From Sulfuricurvum sp. (GTDB lineage: Bacteria > Campylobacterota > Campylobacteria > Campylobacterales > Sulfurimonadaceae): DNA of 64,000 nucleotides. The stretch covers positions 186,001 to 250,000 of the forward strand of contig NZ_JAQTUH010000001.1 of assembly GCF_028710345.1 (NCBI RefSeq), read 5' to 3'. Shown piece after piece: positions 24,435-53,389 of this stretch. Below the pieces are notes generated by a model that worked only from the letters and a program-made list of their open reading frames with translations, was not told the origin of the DNA and did not search any database. Numbering within the stretch: the first letter of the stretch is position 1; each line of letters opens with the position of its first letter. The translations under genes were made by a program, and so were the position numbers.

Positions 24435-24440
24435 TTCCTC

Positions 24441-24465
24441 GTCATTCCGTGCCACGACACGGAAT
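24441..24465. repeat. GTCAT-type palindromic repeat
   Basis: GTCATTCCGTG-CCACGA-CACGGAAT: an 8-bp stem (ATTCCGTG/CACGGAAT) preceded by GTC, directly after leuA. Member of the repeat family seen at 24548, 26364, 29448, 41260, 54799, 59170 and 62805. Confidence 0.7.
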
Positions 24466-24471
24466 CCATCC

Positions 24472-40829: not shown

Positions 40830-40921
40830 ATACACTTTCACAATTTCTCCACAATAACTTTTTATACTGCTCATATCAAAAGGGAATCTCGAAAGAGAAA
40901 CTCTCCAAAAAGGAGTTTAAA

Positions 40922-41251
40922 ATGAATAAGTTGCTCTCAATCTTATTGGTTGCGGCACTCAGTGCCTCTGTTGCTTCAGCTGATGCTAAAGCGGGTCAAA
41001 AAGCGTATTTAAAAACGCTCAAAGCAAAGTTCAACATGAACGGTACCAAATTTGCCGCCGATCATACGGTAGCGGAGTGGGAAGAGCTTTTTGCCAATGG
41101 GGCAAAAGGGTTTATCAAAGAGTACAGTGAAAAATATCCCGCTTCAGCAGCGGTTTTAAGCAGTCCAGATATGGCGGATAAACTCCAAGATGTCGGGGAT
41201 TTTGCGAAAGAGTACGGTTCGGATAGTGGAAACGTTCCGAGTTGTGGGTAA
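40922..41251 (+). CDS. Cytochrome c-like periplasmic protein lacking the haem motif
   Basis: A 109-residue exported protein (signal peptide 1-20, cleavage after ASA). It is clearly paralogous to the monohaem cytochromes at 46805 and 49792: all share GQKAY, then NGTK or NGIK, then EWEELF, and with the first also EYGSDSGNVP and a final cysteine. Where they have C-x-x-C-H at residues 37-41, this one has Leu33-Lys-Ala-Lys36-Phe37, so haem cannot be attached covalently. The frame is intact, with AAAAGGAG before the ATG, so it is a maintained gene and not a decayed one. A function as subunit, chaperone or metal-binding protein is open. Confidence 0.8.
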   Translation: MNKLLSILLVAALSASVASADAKAGQKAYLKTLKAKFNMNGTKFAADHTVAEWEELFANGAKGFIKEYSEKYPASAAVLSSPDMADKLQDVGDFAKEYGSDSGNVPSCG

Positions 41252-41259
41252 GGGGTTGC

Positions 41260-41329
41260 GTCATTCCGTGCACCGACACGGAATCTAAAAATACTAAGAA
41301 CGTGGATACCGTATCAAGTACGGTATGAC
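41260..41329. repeat. GTCAT-bounded composite palindromic repeat
   Basis: GTCATTCCGTGCACCGACAC-GGAAT hairpin and a second hairpin (GATACCGTATCAAGTACGGTAT) ending in ATGAC. It lies between the haem-less protein gene and a cytochrome gene. Confidence 0.65.
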
Positions 41330-41364
41330 GAAATTAGGCAAAGATAAAATAAAAGGATATTCAA

Positions 41365-41658
41365 ATGAAAACGTTAATTGCAATTTTAGGTTTAACAGCA
41401 ATGTTGAGTGCTGCCGATGGTGCGGCAATGTATCAAAAATGTAGTGCATGTCATGGTGCTAAAGCCGAAAAAGCGGCTTTAGGAAAATCAGAAGTGATTG
41501 GTGGATGGAGTTCATCAAAAACACTTGATGCTCTCAAAGGGTATAAAGCGGGAACCCGTAATACCAAAGGGATGGGTGCTATCATGAAAGGGCAAACAGC
41601 CTCGTTGAGTGATGGCGATATGAAAGTACTCAGCGATTATATTGCAGGGTTAAAATAA
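41365..41658 (+). CDS. Small monohaem c-type cytochrome
   Basis: A 97-residue cytochrome of the c553 type. Signal peptide 1-16, haem motif CSACH at residues 26-30, methionine ligand candidates in GMGAIMKGQ near residue 74-78, and the typical end LSDGDMKVLSDYIAGLK. It would carry electrons in the periplasm to a terminal oxidase or reductase. AAAAGGAT precedes the ATG. Confidence 0.93.
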   Translation: MKTLIAILGLTAMLSAADGAAMYQKCSACHGAKAEKAALGKSEVIGGWSSSKTLDALKGYKAGTRNTKGMGAIMKGQTASLSDGDMKVLSDYIAGLK

Positions 41659-46804: not shown

Positions 46805-47134
46805 TTAACAGGTCGGTACGTTGCCTGAATCAGAACCGTATTCAAACAAGAAATCGCGTAAATCTTGCGCTTGACTTTTGAAACCATCACCGTTAAAAAA
46901 TGCAGATGATTTATCTTTTGCATGAGCTTTGACGATTTTTGCTCCGCCGTTTGCGAAAAGTTCTTCCCATTCATCTTGTGTATGCATAGCGGCACCTTTT
47001 GTTCCGTTGCCGTGGCAATTCTTACACGTTTTGAGATAGGCCTTTTGCCCTTTTTTAATATCAGCTGAGGCAGTTGATACCATTGTTCCAACAGCGAGTA
47101 GAATCGCTAAAAGAGATGAAGTTGTTTTAGACAT
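46805..47134 (-). CDS. Monohaem c-type cytochrome, paralogue 1
   Basis: A 109-residue periplasmic cytochrome: signal peptide 1-24, haem motif CKNCH at residues 37-41, then GNGTKGAAMHTQDEWEELFA and a C-terminal EYGSDSGNVPTC with a lone final cysteine. ATG 47134 is preferred over 47143 because AAAGGA is then about 8 bases upstream; the ATG overlaps the stop of the previous gene (TGATG). It is co-transcribed with the two-domain C-x8-C protein. Its close paralogues are at 40922 (haem motif lost) and 49792. Confidence 0.92.
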   Translation of the reverse strand: MSKTTSSLLAILLAVGTMVSTASADIKKGQKAYLKTCKNCHGNGTKGAAMHTQDEWEELFANGGAKIVKAHAKDKSSAFFNGDGFKSQAQDLRDFLFEYGSDSGNVPTC

Positions 47135-47706
47135 CACACACATCCTTTGAAGAACTCTTTTTTGCCACCTTCATAAATCATGTTTTCGAGCTTTAGTGTA
47201 TCTCCATCGATTTTACCGAAAAAGCCGACACCGTTTTGCATAATCGCATGGTCAATTTTTGTTTTACTCACAGTTTGTTTATCTAATTGATATGTTTTAC
47301 CACCAATAACGGCTACTACTTTATCTCCATCAGAGTATTTTTTGAGATCACAATCAGAAAATTCACCTTTATCAGCGCATGACTGAATACCTAAAAATCC
47401 TTTCATATCAGGTACACGTTCAATTTCAGAAGCAATAATACGATTGCCTTCGATGACACCTTTGAATGATACATCATCGTGTCCTAAAGCTACTTCGAGT
47501 TGAGGTTCTGAAATTTTTGGATTTACAATGGTGTATTGTTTTCCATCAATAACAGCAATTAGTGGATCATTTTTAGTGTAATTTGCATAGGTGCAACCAT
47601 TGGTACAGTTTTTACTGAGAAGAGTACCTACATAAGTAGTTTCTTCTATTTCCGTTGCCATTAAACTAAGAGCGCAGAGAGAAATAATCGTGAGAGCTTT
47701 TTTCAT
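47134..47706 (-). CDS. Exported protein with two C-x8-C-type domains
   Basis: A 190-residue protein from ATG 47706 (MKKALTIISLCALSLMA signal peptide). The ATG at 47715 sits directly on the AAAGG site, so 47706 with 9-base spacing is better. The mature part is two tandem copies of one domain: YVGTLLSKNCTNGC (Cys34, Cys38) with PLIAVIDGKQYTI, and FLGIQSCADKGEFSDCDLKK (Cys110 and Cys119) with KVVAVIGGKTYQL. It ends in FFKGCV. The domain also occurs in the single-domain proteins at 47951 and 49394 that flank the radical SAM gene. I know no family name for it. Confidence 0.78.
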   Translation of the reverse strand: MKKALTIISLCALSLMATEIEETTYVGTLLSKNCTNGCTYANYTKNDPLIAVIDGKQYTIVNPKISEPQLEVALGHDDVSFKGVIEGNRIIASEIERVPDMKGFLGIQSCADKGEFSDCDLKKYSDGDKVVAVIGGKTYQLDKQTVSKTKIDHAIMQNGVGFFGKIDGDTLKLENMIYEGGKKEFFKGCV

Positions 47707-47766
47707 CTTATTCATCCTTTATTATGTCGAATAATCAGTCTCCTCTGACGAGATGTCAGGAACTTC

Positions 47767-47778
47767 GGATCATGATCC
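47767..47778. promoter_or_regulatory. Perfect 12-bp palindrome in the divergent control region
   Basis: GGATCATGATCC, extended by CTT/AAG with one mismatch on each side, about 60 bases upstream of the minus-strand start. It could be an operator or a terminator-like hairpin in the leader of the minus-strand operon. Confidence 0.4.
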
Positions 47779-47888
47779 AAAGACGCTTTATTTGAAATCG
47801 TTAAAAGTACAATATTCCTTTTTAGCTTACATAATTATTAATTATTTGTGATAATAATGTGATTTTATTATGACGTGTCACAATTTTA

Positions 47889-47907
47889 TAGCAAAATTTG
47901 CTACAAT
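47889..47907 (+). promoter_or_regulatory. Palindrome overlapping a -10 element before the radical SAM operon
   Basis: TAGCAAAATTTGCTA (47889-47903) is a perfect inverted repeat about a single central base. Its last two bases start a TACAAT -10 element (47902-47907). A protein bound there would block the promoter. The leader would be about 37 bases. Confidence 0.5.
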
Positions 47908-47920
47908 ACTTTTGAATGCG

Positions 47921-47937
47921 TATCAAAAAATTTGATA
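47921..47937 (+). promoter_or_regulatory. Second inverted repeat at the leader end of the radical SAM operon
   Basis: TATCAA-AAAAT-TTGATA, perfect 6-bp arms, ending 3 bases before the GGAG ribosome-binding site. It resembles half-sites of CRP/FNR-type operators (TTGAT..ATCAA read in inverse order), but position downstream of the start point suggests repression or an RNA hairpin. Confidence 0.4.
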
Positions 47938-47950
47938 GATGGAGCTAACA

Positions 47951-48325
47951 ATGCAAAAAACATTGGTCATTTCGCTAAGTAGTATTTTCTTTACATTACC
48001 TCTATTGGCAGATGTCACATCCACAGAAAAAGAAGGCTTTTTACTAACTAAGGAGTGTTTGCAGAAAGGGGAATTTACTGAATGTCCACTAGAACAGCTA
48101 AAGAAAATATCAGGGACGAATCCAATTATGTTGTTTCAGGGAACGGAAGCTAAAACATACATATTGGATATTAGTGGAATCGATAAATCAAAGCTGGATA
48201 AAGTTGCTTTTAAAAATAATATCATCGTTACAGGGACATTGCAAAGTGATAATGTAACTTTAAAAGTTAGTAATATTGTCCAAAAACCAATTTATAAAGA
48301 AATTCGAAGAAGTGGAGTAATATGA
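47951..48325 (+). CDS. Exported C-x8-C protein A, upstream of the radical SAM gene
   Basis: A 124-residue exported protein. I start at ATG 47951 (MQKTLVISLSS) because GGAG lies 6 bases upstream and the paralogue at 49394 has the same N-terminus and the same ATGGAGCT leader; the ATG at 47939 is part of that leader. Signal peptide about 1-20. The only two cysteines are Cys36 and Cys45 (KECLQKGEFTECPLEQL), followed by NPIMLFQGTEAKTYILDI and a beta-rich end, KEIRRSGVI. The stop overlaps the radical SAM start (ATGA). It is a candidate substrate of that enzyme; the family is unknown to me. Confidence 0.78.
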   Translation: MQKTLVISLSSIFFTLPLLADVTSTEKEGFLLTKECLQKGEFTECPLEQLKKISGTNPIMLFQGTEAKTYILDISGIDKSKLDKVAFKNNIIVTGTLQSDNVTLKVSNIVQKPIYKEIRRSGVI

Positions 48326-49392
48326 ACCTCACTCTCTCCCTCACTCACGCTTGTCAACTCCGATGCAATTACTGTTATGCAGGGGAGAAAATCGATAAAC
48401 GGATGAATGAAGAGACCGCGATGCGTGCTATCGATTTTGCGTTTGAGTACCCATCGCAGGAGATGATACTCGGATTTTTCGGGGGTGAACCGTTGTTGGA
48501 GTGGGATTTACTTCAAAAATCGGTAGAGAGAGTCGAAGAAAAAGCCAAAAATACCAATACCTATCTTACCAAAACCCTCACAACGAATGGATTATTGTTG
48601 GATGAGGCAAAAGCTTTATGGTTATCTCAACATGGTTTTCATATCGCCCTTTCTCTCGATGGGAACGAAAAAATGCACAGCACCCACAGAGTGTTTGCTA
48701 ACCAAGCCTCTTCATTTGAGCACACATTCTCAGCTCTCAATATCATCAAAAAATATTTTGATTCTAACCATTTCACGATTATCACAGTGGTTACCCCTCA
48801 AAATGTACATCATCTTTATGAATCGGTGGTAGAATTAGTAGAGCAACACGGGGTGAACCATTTTACCCTTAGTCCGAATCTTTATACTACTTGGGATGAG
48901 GGAGAAACTCTTTGGCAAGAGCAGTATGCGCGTATCGGAGAATATGTGATTTCCTCTTATGAAAAAGGGACTCCTATCTCGGTGAGTTTTATCGACCGAA
49001 AAATCGAAGCGACCCTTAATGAGCATTGTCGTGTTTGCAGTTTTGGAGAGATGGAGATTGCCGTTGCCCCATCGGGCAATATCTACCCATGCGAACGGTT
49101 GATTGGGGATGATTCGGGTGCCGTATTACTGGGTAATGTCCATGGTGGATTTGACATCCCAAAACGTCAAGAAATCTTGCGTGCACGCGGATGTGCTTAT
49201 AGTGAATGTGAAACGTGCGAAATACAAACACGGTGTCAAAACAGTTGCGGTTGTACCAACTATAGCCTCAGCGGAGAGATTAATCTTCCGACACCGATTT
49301 TGTGTTTTAATGAAAAGCTTTCAATATCGATTGCGGATTATGTATATTCTCAGCTGAGTGAAAACAGCTATTTTATAGAGAGATGGAGCTGA
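48322..49392 (+). CDS. Radical SAM/SPASM-domain peptide- or protein-modifying enzyme
   Basis: A 356-residue radical SAM enzyme. The SAM [4Fe-4S] cluster is held by Cys11, Cys15 and Cys18 (CQLRCNYC), with GGEP at 54-57. The C-terminal SPASM domain is complete: Cys239-x12-Gly-x4-Cys257, then Cys296-x2-Cys299-x5-Cys305-x3-Cys309, then Cys328, for two auxiliary clusters. Additional cysteines are 236, 291 and 311. This architecture is that of sulfatase-maturating and RiPP-maturing enzymes (thioether or C-C cross-linking). No sulfatase is near. It is sandwiched with almost no spacing between two exported C-x8-C proteins, which are the obvious candidates for modification in the cytoplasm before export. 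Confidence 0.92.
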   Translation: MNLTLSLTHACQLRCNYCYAGEKIDKRMNEETAMRAIDFAFEYPSQEMILGFFGGEPLLEWDLLQKSVERVEEKAKNTNTYLTKTLTTNGLLLDEAKALWLSQHGFHIALSLDGNEKMHSTHRVFANQASSFEHTFSALNIIKKYFDSNHFTIITVVTPQNVHHLYESVVELVEQHGVNHFTLSPNLYTTWDEGETLWQEQYARIGEYVISSYEKGTPISVSFIDRKIEATLNEHCRVCSFGEMEIAVAPSGNIYPCERLIGDDSGAVLLGNVHGGFDIPKRQEILRARGCAYSECETCEIQTRCQNSCGCTNYSLSGEINLPTPILCFNEKLSISIADYVYSQLSENSYFIERWS

Positions 49393-49393
49393 T

Positions 49394-49789
49394 ATGCAAA
49401 AGACACTGATGATTTCACTGAGTAGTATTTTATTTGTTGCCCCTATGATGGCTGGGGATGTGTATGCAGGGCTATTGACGACACAGCAATGTTTAGCATT
49501 AAAAGAACGGATGGACTGTCCAATGAAGCAATTGGATAAAATTACTCCTCAAAATCCTCTCATGATTTATCAAGAAAATGAAAGTAAACTCTATGTATTA
49601 GATGTCTCAGCAATCGATAAAAAAGATTTAAAGGCAATCGGATTTAGAAACGGTGTTTATATTTTTGGACATTTAAGTGCAGATGGAACAACGTTTGTAG
49701 TTAGAAAAGTATCACCACCGCGACCATTGGAAGATGTAAAAAATCAAGCCTTTATTGAAGGATGGACAAGACCAAGTGGTGCAGGTTGA
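49394..49789 (+). CDS. Exported C-x8-C protein B, downstream of the radical SAM gene
   Basis: A 131-residue paralogue of the protein at 47951: signal peptide MQKTLMISLSSILFVAPMMA, the only cysteines at 33 and 42 (QQCLALKERMDCPMKQLDKI), NPLMIYQENESKLYVLDV, and IFGHLSADGTTFVVRKV. It has an extra C-terminal tail ending EGWTRPSGAG. It starts one base after the radical SAM stop, and its ribosome-binding site GATGGAG lies in the last codons of that gene. Substrate, partner or scaffold of the enzyme; no known domain recognised. Confidence 0.78.
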   Translation: MQKTLMISLSSILFVAPMMAGDVYAGLLTTQQCLALKERMDCPMKQLDKITPQNPLMIYQENESKLYVLDVSAIDKKDLKAIGFRNGVYIFGHLSADGTTFVVRKVSPPRPLEDVKNQAFIEGWTRPSGAG

Positions 49790-49791
49790 TT

Positions 49792-50112
49792 TTATTGGTC
49801 TGAGTCAGATGCACTATATAATAAAAAGTCTCTTATATCTTTGTAGTGAATTGAAAATAACTCTGTTTTGAAAAAAGCGTCAGCTTTTTCATCCTTTTGA
49901 TGGGCTTGTTTGATTTTGGTACCGTTATTGGAAAATAGTTCCTCCCACTCTACTTGGGTATGCATTGCAGCACCTTTAATTCCATTGCCATGACAAACTT
50001 TGCAATTTTTAATATACGCTTTTTGTCCTTTTGGTATATTAGCAAATGCATTAAATGTAAAAACATTAGTAATAAAAATGACTACAAGGAAACGTAAAGT
50101 GATTTTGCTCAT
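49792..50112 (-). CDS. Monohaem c-type cytochrome, paralogue 2
   Basis: A 106-residue periplasmic cytochrome with signal peptide 1-24 and CKVCH at residues 37-41, followed by GNGIKGAAMHTQVEWEELFS. It closely follows paralogue 1 (46805) through the first 60 residues, then diverges and ends LLYSASDSDQ without the final cysteine. It is convergent with the C-x8-C protein B gene, 2 bases apart. TAGGAAC precedes the ATG. Confidence 0.88.
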   Translation of the reverse strand: MSKITLRFLVVIFITNVFTFNAFANIPKGQKAYIKNCKVCHGNGIKGAAMHTQVEWEELFSNNGTKIKQAHQKDEKADAFFKTELFSIHYKDIRDFLLYSASDSDQ

Positions 50113-50203: not shown

Positions 50204-51388
50204 TTATCTCCACTCCACACAAATCTTCGTCCCTTGATTTTGTTCCGATTCGATGGTGATGTTCATCCCGTACTCTTTGGCAATCATCGCGACGATGTGT
50301 AATCCTATCCCAAATCCCCCAACACTTTTATCGGCGCGGGTGTAACGTTCAAACACCCGATCAATCATATCTTTGGGGATACCGATGCCGTTGTCTTGGA
50401 TGCAGAGGGTGGATGGGGTGAGGGAGATGAGTATCTCGCCGCCCATTTTGTTGTATTTAATCGCATTGGAGAGGAGATTATCGATAACACGGGTCATTTT
50501 GGTTCGATCACTGGAGAGGGTGACGTTACCTGTGATAGAGAGTTTTAGGGTAATCTTTTTTTGCTCGATACGGTGGCGAAAATACTCGATACGTTCCCCT
50601 AAGAGGTGGGAAATATCGAGCGGTTCATTGTGGATGATGAGATCGTGGTTGAGGATGAGATAGGTGAGATCATCGTAGAGGGTGGAGATGGTGCGCGAAG
50701 CGATTTCGATACGTCCTAATTTTTTTTGAACCGATTCGGAGAGTTGAGTTCTATCTAATGATTCCAAATTGGTGAGGATGGCACTCACGGGGGTGTTAAG
50801 CTCGTGGGTGGTGTCTTTGATAAAATCATCGAGGAGGGCTATCGCTTCGTTCATGGGGCGGAGAATCAAACGGGAGAGCAAGAAACCTACTCCGACGAGC
50901 ATCAAAAACAAAATAATTCCGAAAGTAAGGGTTATTTCGAGTGTTTGTTGTCGCCATAAGCCGTCGTCTTCGGTTTCAAAAATCAGATAATATTCCCCCA
51001 TTCCATAGGGTAAGAGGGGGACAATCAGATAGATATGTCCCGATGCGACGTAAATATTTTCTTTGAAATTAATATCGGAGCCATTTAAACGGGAGATTAT
51101 TGGTTTTCGGTCATATCCGTAGAGGGCAGTGGTATAGGCTAAATCTTTTGGGAAAGTAGAAAGATTGCGATCGTTCTCGAGCCACTGTTTGAGTTTAGGG
51201 ACATAACTTTCCGATTCCAACTGCATCGCGAGGCGTTGAGAGGAGAGCATAACCGCTTTAGCGTACTGATAATAGAGGAGACCGAGAAGGGCGAGAATCA
51301 AAACCGACATGATTCCATAGAGGATTAGGAAGCTTTTGAGGGTACGGTATTTAGCGAAATTGATACCCGAGGCGCTTGTGGCTGACAA
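50204..51388 (-). CDS. Sensor histidine kinase of the NhaC operon
   Basis: A kinase of about 394 residues from a TTG at 51388 (reads SATSASGINFAKY), which has GGAAAGGA 6 bases upstream and overlaps the regulator gene by 38 bp; the longer frame to 51463 would overlap by 113 bp and has no signal. Two membrane segments (about 24-44 and 158-180) enclose a periplasmic domain. HisKA motif KDTTHELNTPVSAIL, HATPase motifs NLLSNAIKY, DNGIGIP and FGIGLHIV. Partner of the adjacent OmpR-type regulator. Confidence 0.85.
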   Translation of the reverse strand: MSATSASGINFAKYRTLKSFLILYGIMSVLILALLGLLYYQYAKAVMLSSQRLAMQLESESYVPKLKQWLENDRNLSTFPKDLAYTTALYGYDRKPIISRLNGSDINFKENIYVASGHIYLIVPLLPYGMGEYYLIFETEDDGLWRQQTLEITLTFGIILFLMLVGVGFLLSRLILRPMNEAIALLDDFIKDTTHELNTPVSAILTNLESLDRTQLSESVQKKLGRIEIASRTISTLYDDLTYLILNHDLIIHNEPLDISHLLGERIEYFRHRIEQKKITLKLSITGNVTLSSDRTKMTRVIDNLLSNAIKYNKMGGEILISLTPSTLCIQDNGIGIPKDMIDRVFERYTRADKSVGGFGIGLHIVAMIAKEYGMNITIESEQNQGTKICVEWR

Positions 51389-52019
51389 TGGAATCCTTTC
51401 CGAGGAGTTTGCGGAGCGTTTTGATGTAGGTGCGCAGACTTCCATCACTTGGGGTCTCATCATAATCCCACAGATGCTCCATAATCATCTCATGAGATAG
51501 TAGTTCATTGCGATGTTGGATAAAGAGTTTGAGGAGCTTGTGCTCTTTGAGTTGTAGATTCTGGAGATTTCCATTGATGGTTAGCACCTGATTATCACTA
51601 TCGTAGGTAATCCCATCGGCTAATGTGATGGCATCGGTAGGGTTGTGATAAAAATTGCGTTTGAGAATGGTTTGAATCCGTAGCAACAGCTCTTTGAGTG
51701 CGAATGGTTTGCGGATATAATCATCCCCTCCGCTCTCAAAACCCTCTTCGACATCACTCATCGCATTGCGTGAGGTGATAAAAATCGCAGGGGTGGTGTT
51801 TCCCCCTTTTCGATTTGCTTTTAGCAGGGAGAAACCATCACCCGCAGGGACATTCACATCGAGGAGCAATAAATCAAATTTGTGTTCGTATAAAGCATCT
51901 TCAGCAGAAGGTGCATCATAGACGCACACGACATTAAAGCCTTGTTCTTCGAGATATTCGCTGACACTTTCCGAGAGGTTCGGGTCATCTTCGAGGAGGA
52001 GGAGAGAGGCTTTGGTCAT
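51351..52019 (-). CDS. OmpR-type response regulator
   Basis: A 222-residue regulator from ATG 52019 (MTKASLLLLEDDPN). Receiver with Asp54 (LLLLDVNVPAGDG), acidic Asp11-12 and KPF lysine; winged-helix output with LKEHKLLKLFIQHRNELLS and a typical end VSHKRLGYQFR. The ATG overlaps the NhaC stop (ATGA), and the gene overlaps the kinase. The two-component pair probably responds to ionic or pH conditions handled by the antiporter; that is inference from the operon. Confidence 0.92.
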   Translation of the reverse strand: MTKASLLLLEDDPNLSESVSEYLEEQGFNVVCVYDAPSAEDALYEHKFDLLLLDVNVPAGDGFSLLKANRKGGNTTPAIFITSRNAMSDVEEGFESGGDDYIRKPFALKELLLRIQTILKRNFYHNPTDAITLADGITYDSDNQVLTINGNLQNLQLKEHKLLKLFIQHRNELLSHEMIMEHLWDYDETPSDGSLRTYIKTLRKLLGKDSIVSHKRLGYQFR

Positions 52020-53389
52020 GTTAGTGCGATTCCAAATAGAATAAATAATATGAGTGAGAGTCCGGCTGCAATCAGAGCATAGGGGAGTTGCGTTCGCGTA
52101 TGCTCTTGGACGCTGCATCCGCTCGCCATGGCAGAGATAATGGTGGTATCAGAGATTGGGGAGCAGTGGTCGCCAAATACACCGCCCGATATCGCCGCTC
52201 CCATTGCTAGTGCTATCGGTGCATCGAGACCGACAGCGAGAGGAATCGCGATGGGGAGCATGATACTAAACGTCCCCCAACTGGTTCCCGTTGCAAAAGC
52301 GATAATCGCCGCGAGCACAAAAATAGCTCCTGCGAGATATTCTGAGGGGAGATAGTCACCGATAAATGAGGCGAGGTATTGACCTACGTGCATATCCGAA
52401 CTCACTCCGCCGATAGCAAAGGCAAATAGGAGAATCATTGCGATAGGGGTCATGGTGCGAGCACCGCTCAACGATGCTTCCCAAAACTCTGATAATGTGA
52501 GGGCATTTTTAAAACGATAGTATCCTAGCATCATAAGTAATGTAATCAGTAAGGTATAAAAGATAGACGTTGAACCCGAACCTTTGAAAATATCTCCGTT
52601 TCCTGTGATAAACATAAAAAGAATGACCCCACCAATCATCCATACCATCGGCCATAGAAAAAGCCCTATGTCTCCTCTATCATCTTCACACTCAATTTCG
52701 GGGGTACTAATGGTGGCATGGCGCATGGGACCTATATCAATCTCATACCATATAGCGATAAAAGTGACGATAAGAGCCATAAAGGCATAAAAATTAAAGG
52801 CAATGGATTGCATCAGCCATGTGGCACTCTCTCCCGCGATAAGACCAGCGGAGATCTGTCCTCCGATAAGCCCGAGTAACAATGCTCCCCAACCATTTAA
52901 GGGGATAAGGGAACATACGGGAGCGGAGGTTGAATCACAAACAAAAGCGAGCTTGGCACGGCTAATTCCGTGACGATCACAAAAAGGGCGTCCGATGGCA
53001 CCTGCAACGAGCGAAGTGATGGATGACTCGATAAATACGATAATCCCGGCGATAAAGCTGGGCATCAGCGCTCCCCTTTTGGTTTTGACAATGGAGCGTT
53101 TGATACTCAATTCGTGAACTAAGCCATTCACCCCACCGCTACGCTCTATCAGCATCATGACAGAACCTACCATGATTGCAAACGCGAGGGTTTTGAGAAC
53201 CCATGCTTCACTAAGAAGGGCAAAAAAACGCTCAAAAGTTAGTAGAAAGGTACTGAGAAGATTAAAATCGGCGATTATGAATTCCCCAATGAGAACGGCT
53301 ATCGCTAATGCAATAAAGACAGAACGGCTAAAAAAAGCGAGAAAAATAGCGATAAGTGGAGGGATTAACCCTAAGATTCCGTATTCTAT
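52016..53389 (-). CDS. nhaC: NhaC-family Na+/H+ antiporter, apparent ATA start codon
   Basis: Polytopic ion antiporter, about ten to twelve hydrophobic segments. The only in-frame ATG near the front (53173) would give 385 residues and cut off two membrane segments. The frame is open for 72 more codons, with clear family-like sequence (EYGILGLIPPLIAIFLAFFS, later WVLKTLAFAIMVGSV). It contains no ATG, GTG or TTG until the preceding gene's stop. TAAGGA lies exactly 6 bases before an ATA codon at 53389, giving 457 residues, the normal family size. I therefore annotate ATA as start. Later motifs: PSFIAGIIVFIESSITSLVA, GTSWGTFSIMLPIAIPLA and GGVFGDHCSPISDTTI. Confidence 0.85.
   Translation of the reverse strand: MEYGILGLIPPLIAIFLAFFSRSVFIALAIAVLIGEFIIADFNLLSTFLLTFERFFALLSEAWVLKTLAFAIMVGSVMMLIERSGGVNGLVHELSIKRSIVKTKRGALMPSFIAGIIVFIESSITSLVAGAIGRPFCDRHGISRAKLAFVCDSTSAPVCSLIPLNGWGALLLGLIGGQISAGLIAGESATWLMQSIAFNFYAFMALIVTFIAIWYEIDIGPMRHATISTPEIECEDDRGDIGLFLWPMVWMIGGVILFMFITGNGDIFKGSGSTSIFYTLLITLLMMLGYYRFKNALTLSEFWEASLSGARTMTPIAMILLFAFAIGGVSSDMHVGQYLASFIGDYLPSEYLAGAIFVLAAIIAFATGTSWGTFSIMLPIAIPLAVGLDAPIALAMGAAISGGVFGDHCSPISDTTIISAMASGCSVQEHTRTQLPYALIAAGLSLILFILFGIALT

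Follow-up and report, generated by a model that had tools for sequence, protein, structure and literature searches.

On sequence evidence, the gene at positions 40922–41251 of the window, by which we mean the whole stretch of 64,000 nucleotides of Sulfuricurvum DNA that was analysed, belongs to an ancient haem-free family that is the sister of the small CxxCH cytochromes of Campylobacterota and extends across the Campylobacterales. We denote the haem-free set N and the CxxCH relatives, most of which end in DSGNVPSC, H; f3, f4 etc. are codes for families within the Campylobacterales. A preliminary description had presented this gene as one that lost its haem-binding motif; the phylogenetic tree instead places it in a family that is haem-free as a whole and distinct from the CxxCH family. 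The gene and the two paralogues with which it is compared have the following features.

40922–41251, forward strand: cytochrome c paralogue of 109 aa without the haem-binding motif, type I of family N, identified by reading of the open reading frame, with 33 orthologues in 41 Sulfuricurvum genomes and dN/dS of 0.14
40922–40981, forward strand: codons of the 20-aa signal peptide, with the cleavage site ASA-D, MNKLLSILLVAALSASVASA-DAK, read from the sequence; the sole part with AlphaFold2 confidence under 60
41018–41032, forward strand: LKAKF, residues 33–37, where the paralogues have CxxCH (sequence and alignment)
41243–41245, forward strand: Cys108, the invariant C-terminal Cys (DSGNVPSC; family N alignments)
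40910–40915, forward strand: AAGGAG ribosome-binding site, read from the sequence
46805–47143, reverse strand: CxxCH paralogue (family H) used for comparison (Pfam Cytochrome_CBB3 / Cytochrom_C)
49792–50112, reverse strand: second CxxCH paralogue (family H), without the conserved C-terminal NVPSC tail (sequence; Pfam Cytochrome_CBB3 / Cytochrom_C)

The frame, the start, the AAGGAG ribosome-binding site and the signal peptide are all as first described, and we infer that the product is secreted. In the alignment with the paralogue at 46805, GQKAYLKT, NGTK, EWEELFANG, EYGSDSGNVP and the C-terminal Cys all match, and CKNCH of the paralogue is replaced by LKAKF, as had been noted. The two proteins had also been described as identical in length, which holds only when the paralogue is read from its fourth codon (109 residues); from its first ATG it has 112, so that the equality is a coincidence. 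The motif swap brings a one-residue insertion (LKAKFNMNG versus CKNCHGNG), and the differences go beyond CxxCH, with the Met of GAAMHT changed to Asp or Glu. Six more relatives are encoded in the same genome, every one with CxxCH. The protein has no match at all in Pfam, including the Cytochrom_C and Cytochrome_CBB3 models, both of which are matched by the H paralogues.

CxxCH is absent from all 67 N sequences of the tree set. The KAH/KKH His, invariant in H (29 of 29 members), is probably the distal, that is, the second axial ligand; in the corresponding column, none of the 67 N sequences has His, and the protein encoded at 40922–41251 has Tyr. N therefore lacks all four classical haem contacts, namely, the two thioether cysteines, the proximal His and what is probably the distal one, and haem is presumably absent from the protein itself. 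Two other columns of the N alignment, KxxC and [IL]CP, contain Cys at both positions in 33 sequences, at neither in 34, and at one only in none. Members with this Cys pair (at KxxC-G and [IL]CP) are denoted type II; the window protein, with F37 and Y72, is not among them, and in its branch these columns hold Phe and Tyr or Phe. Because the columns are close to the places in the sequence that are bridged by haem in H, a disulphide or an aromatic contact may take the place of haem: the Cys pair in half of N, predicted to form a disulphide, or the aromatic pair in the 40922–41251 branch, probably links the two segments that haem joins in the cytochromes. The DSGNVPSC tail is common to N and most H, which argues that its role is unrelated to haem. 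Retention of the C-terminal Cys had been taken to suggest a kept function other than haem electron transfer. What stands is that this is a real cytochrome c paralogue without the haem residues, held by selection, with the Cys retained; the Cys, which is invariant in the N alignments, is no evidence of a replacement function because it is also conserved in nearly all CxxCH paralogues.

Orthologues were sought in 228 genomes of Sulfurimonadaceae, of which 41 are Sulfuricurvum, the source genome included. Close orthologues, with 67–89% identity, are present in 33 of the 41 Sulfuricurvum genomes (again counting the source), and CxxCH is absent from every one that was read, which is not the pattern of a strain-specific loss; relatives in other genera, at 48–60% identity, are likewise haem-free. 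Among 32 Sulfuricurvum orthologues, pairwise dN/dS estimated by the Nei-Gojobori method (136 pairs with dS of 0.05–1.5) had a median of 0.142 (range 0.03–0.29), far from the value near 1 that the preliminary description had set against its own claim and similar to that of the CxxCH paralogues (0.169). The N orthologues in Sulfuricurvum are under purifying selection. In a metagenome-assembled genome named Sulfurimonas (L049 / L135), the N gene contains an in-frame TAA, either genuine or an assembly error.

The search with an N profile found members in 254 of the 398 genomes of the order, a count that includes lower-scoring CxxCH relatives. None of the top-ranked members, taken from f3, f4, f5, f8, f10, f13, f17, f18 and f20, contains CxxCH, and H was found in several families too. 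Thus, N is not confined to Sulfuricurvum, with members occurring throughout the order, and H, obtained from other families as well, is not confined to Sulfurimonadaceae. In a tree of 96 sequences, all 67 N fell on one side of a single branch (92/89; 93% of bootstrap trees), with H on the opposite side; the motif and distal-ligand columns had been left out of the alignment, which has few columns. The gene at 40922–41251 lacks CxxCH, has the DSG[NK]xPxC C-terminal tail and lies on the N side of this branch. The resemblance between the two groups is not due to chance, given the profile-profile E value of 3e-42. The tree would be compatible with either direction of change, that is, haem-lessness arising once at the depth of the N/H split or the haem site being gained once; given that CxxCH is the rule among c-type cytochromes in general, loss in N is the simpler of the two readings. 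The family is apparently undescribed. Pfam Cytochrom_C and Cytochrome_CBB3 models matched 0 of 19 N members, PHROGs and NCBIfam provided no family for N (a single member had one stray NCBIfam match, E 0.0013), the best match among solved structures had an E value of 0.85, so that no sequence relative was found there, and the literature searched yielded nothing on point, either on a cytochrome paralogue without haem in Campylobacterota or on a cluster of this two-component system with c553.

Several observations on related sequences are worth recording. A more distant haem-free relative, YNKGFKYYxKYxKK..., is encoded in f15 (L273, L274), with two divergent copies in L274. At L054 (genome G065), a second N copy adjoins a CxxCH copy and has an H-like signal peptide, as if the genes recombined. 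In several families (L261–L265, L277, L078), the CxxCH form adjoins a gene for a protein of about 460 aa that resembles argininosuccinate lyase.

The AlphaFold2 model of the window protein, built with 44 family sequences, is all helical, with a mean pLDDT of 84.7 and values above 90 for the mature part. The matches listed by VIA-align were nearly all c-type cytochromes, which also ranked at the top, with Z of 5–6 for cytochrome c6 and, at best, Z of 6.0 and rmsd of 2.9 over 78 residues, although such Z values are modest and may reflect a common arrangement; a Foldseek search with the same model yielded no significant fold match (E above 1). N is thus predicted to keep a cytochrome-c-like helical fold, for which sequence homology to H (profile E 3e-42) is a firmer argument than the structure matches.

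The genomic context of N associates it with a second, haem-binding cytochrome, a two-component system and a characteristic promoter. In the window, these are as follows.

40837–40855, forward strand: direct-repeat operator TTCACAAT-TTC-TCCACAAT, predicted, located at the -35 place and with a period of 11 bp (a single exact match in the genome; phylogenetic footprint)
40863–40868, forward strand: TATACT, probable -10 element, conserved 7–8 bp after the direct repeat
41256–41340, no strand assigned: spacer between N and c553, occupied by a dispersed palindromic repeat (20 matches in the source genome)
41365–41658, forward strand: c553-type cytochrome (CSACH), probable same-operon partner (Pfam Cytochrom_C, E 1.7e-8; adjacency to N; fusion at L052)
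50204–51463, reverse strand: sensor histidine kinase, forming a two-component system with the regulator listed next (Pfam HisKA and HATPase_c; co-occurrence with c553 and the operator)
51351–52019, reverse strand: OmpR-type response regulator, probable operon regulator (Pfam Response_reg and Trans_reg_C; synteny)

In Sulfuricurvum, the typical gene order is a coiled-coil protein, a short protein, N, c553, and then the convergent histidine kinase and OmpR-type regulator; in the window, the kinase, which adjoins c553 in relatives, is displaced from it, together with the regulator, by about 8.5 kb, to 50204–52118. The c553 gene adjoins N in most Sulfuricurvum loci with enough flanking sequence, and in other families. 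The cluster in f3, f5, f17 and f20 reads regulator, kinase, small CxxCH cytochrome, N, c553, and in genomes of the Sulfurimonas group, the regulator, kinase, c553 and N follow one another on one strand. In one genome (G056, L052), c553 and N domains are fused within a single open reading frame, the one such fusion seen. The first half of the repeat at 41256–41340 has another copy at 24440–24467. Elsewhere in the window, the radical SAM/SPASM protein encoded at 48322–49392, for which the best NCBIfam match, below the cut-off, is a PapB-type ranthipeptide maturase, is flanked by the genes of two similar small secreted proteins (47939–48325 and 49394–49789), and a third secreted protein is encoded nearby, at 47134–47715; the small secreted proteins of this region (47134–49789) matched no family.

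Nearly every Sulfuricurvum locus, and loci of other families that have the cluster, show a direct repeat upstream of N, T[TC]CAC[AG]AT-N3-T[TC]CAC[AG]AT, which occupies the -35 place and has a -10 element after it. The source genome has a single exact copy of the repeat, at 40837–40855, and sites with one or two mismatches elsewhere in this genome or in the window were at the level of controls or shuffled sequences. With the extended -10 side, the repeat was detected in 36 of the 41 Sulfuricurvum genomes, compared with a total of two hits for the reversed control. Among the 30 loci with exact matches that were read across the order, the repeat preceded N in 19 and c553 in 6, and was located elsewhere in the other 5; four f8 loci (L288–L291) have the operator and c553 but no N. 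This repeat is probably bound by the OmpR-type regulator whose kinase partner is encoded in the same neighbourhood, and comparison gives good support to regulation of the N-c553 operon by this two-component system, although synteny and co-occurrence suggest regulation and binding rather than prove them. The sequence TTCAC-AATTTC-TCCAC in the window closely fits WTTCAC-N6-TTCACW, reportedly the DccR operator of Wosten 2010; this fit to a DccR-type box is best treated as a lead. The best matches to the regulator in f10 and f13, taken to include Campylobacter, have only 43–52% identity, too little to establish orthology. According to a review (PMC9449129), the OmpR-type DccR of Campylobacter jejuni activates a small number of genes, the products of which are putative periplasmic and membrane proteins.

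The kinase, c553 and the operator occur in the same 36 Sulfuricurvum genomes and are all missing in the remaining five; N is present in 33 of the 36 and, as a separate gene, in none of the five, with the proviso that the species share ancestry, so that these counts are not phylogenetically independent tests, and that many of the genomes are metagenome assemblies in which a single absence is uncertain. In the three Sulfuricurvum species without N, c553 directly follows the operator repeat and the kinase is kept. This asymmetry, whereby in Sulfuricurvum a separate N never occurs without c553 and the kinase, while both occur without N, helps the view that we favour, tentatively and with a confidence that approaches but does not reach an even chance: N, with a cytochrome c fold but no haem, would be a partner of c553 in a periplasmic module under the control of the regulator. 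The adjacency of the two genes and the natural c553-N fusion also speak for this view. Under this scheme, N and c553 would be made from one promoter in Sulfuricurvum and several other families, with the OmpR-type regulator binding the direct repeat; N would dock to the co-made c553 in the periplasm and, once docked, might shield, position or modulate its electron transfer when the kinase is stimulated. We infer the physical pairing of N with c553 and, likewise, the biochemical role and the direction of the effect. The three species lacking N indicate that c553 does not need N.

The same arrangement of genes could suggest, by analogy with CpxP-like logic, that N serves the sensor kinase as an accessory protein in the periplasm, binding the periplasmic domain of the kinase to set or damp the signal, with c553 being the component that is measured or protected. 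The location of N just downstream of the regulator and kinase genes in f3, f5, f17 and f20, the one-strand order in Sulfurimonas, and the exact box being unique or almost unique within each genome, as would befit a dedicated feedback operon, all fit such a role. We nevertheless consider it unlikely, given that three Sulfuricurvum species keep the kinase and c553 without N, many N have no such system nearby, and the periplasmic part of the kinase matches no Pfam domain, so that no contact can be proposed.

With about the same low probability, N might be a thiol carrier or a disulphide-tethered periplasmic protein, the active part being its C-terminal Cys, joined in type II by the Cys pair. The invariance of the former in N, the fact that the latter never occurs as a single Cys, and the presence of thioredoxin genes and, in some loci, MsrA-like genes near the clusters are in line with this possibility, whereas the near-ubiquity of the C-terminal Cys among the CxxCH paralogues makes it non-specific to N, and the pair is missing in half of N, including the window protein. 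Somewhat less likely still, N could be a pseudo-cytochrome that gates or reads c553, competing for, or reporting on, a redox-dependent docking surface and relaying this to the neighbouring kinase, in a manner conserved across Campylobacterota; if so, it would represent a signalling use of the cytochrome fold without its cofactor.

Partnership with c553, the reading that we prefer, cannot be the only role of N because many members (those of f8 and f18, and the second copies of f17 and Sulfurimonas) lack both the box and a nearby c553 gene, and are instead adjacent to genes encoding DUF3373 proteins. A DUF3373 gene (E 1e-111 to 1e-129) adjoins N on the same strand in 6 of 6 loci in f8, 3 of 6 in f18 and all 3 second copies in f17, and some Sulfurimonas N are likewise next to such a gene. 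No operator box was found within 2 mismatches upstream of stand-alone, DUF3373-linked N in five loci. DUF3373 is included in a putative pore family (PMC4827864). These outer-membrane proteins (TCDB 1.B.62), which neighbour stand-alone N in four groups but are no part of the window locus, raise the question of whether N is primarily an envelope adaptor for them, with the c553 operon a secondary recruitment. Given that no DUF3373 gene adjoins N in Sulfuricurvum or in the clusters of N and c553 with the regulator and kinase, we regard this as quite improbable. Finally, that the gene at 40922–41251 is a strain-specific loss or a decaying pseudogene, for which only the in-frame TAA in one relative from another genus (L049) could be invoked, is refuted by the 33 orthologues in the genus, the intact frames, the low dN/dS and the conserved promoter, leaving it a negligible probability.

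Compared with known proteins, N resembles the small class I cytochromes c (PF00034 / PF13442; c6 and c553 types) in its probable helical fold, its predicted secretion and its homology to CxxCH paralogues that match these models, but differs from them in the absence of CxxCH and of the proximal and distal ligands, and in matching no Pfam model. With H, it shares the length class, the GQKxYxK start, in many cases HTQxEW, and the C-terminal DSGNVPSC, whereas H keeps CxxCH and the invariant His and, in several lineages, has an argH-like neighbour that is not observed for N. Some SoxA proteins have an N-terminal cytochrome domain without haem, next to a haem-bearing partner. This offers a parallel, a cytochrome fold without haem beside one that carries it; unlike N, which is a stand-alone protein with a phylogeny of its own, often in an operon with c553, the SoxA domain is part of a multi-haem protein.

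Pseudo-enzymes are well known, but it is unusual to see a family of "pseudo-cytochromes" that stays distinct from the sister family with haem throughout many families of a phylum and that is often produced together with a genuine cytochrome. The analysis also connects an uncharacterised two-component system with what looks like its own target operon, for which an operator is predicted. By homology, N proteins may be called cytochromes in genome annotation, yet none has the residues for the usual binding of haem. The family therefore offers a clean case for asking what a haem-less cytochrome c fold does.
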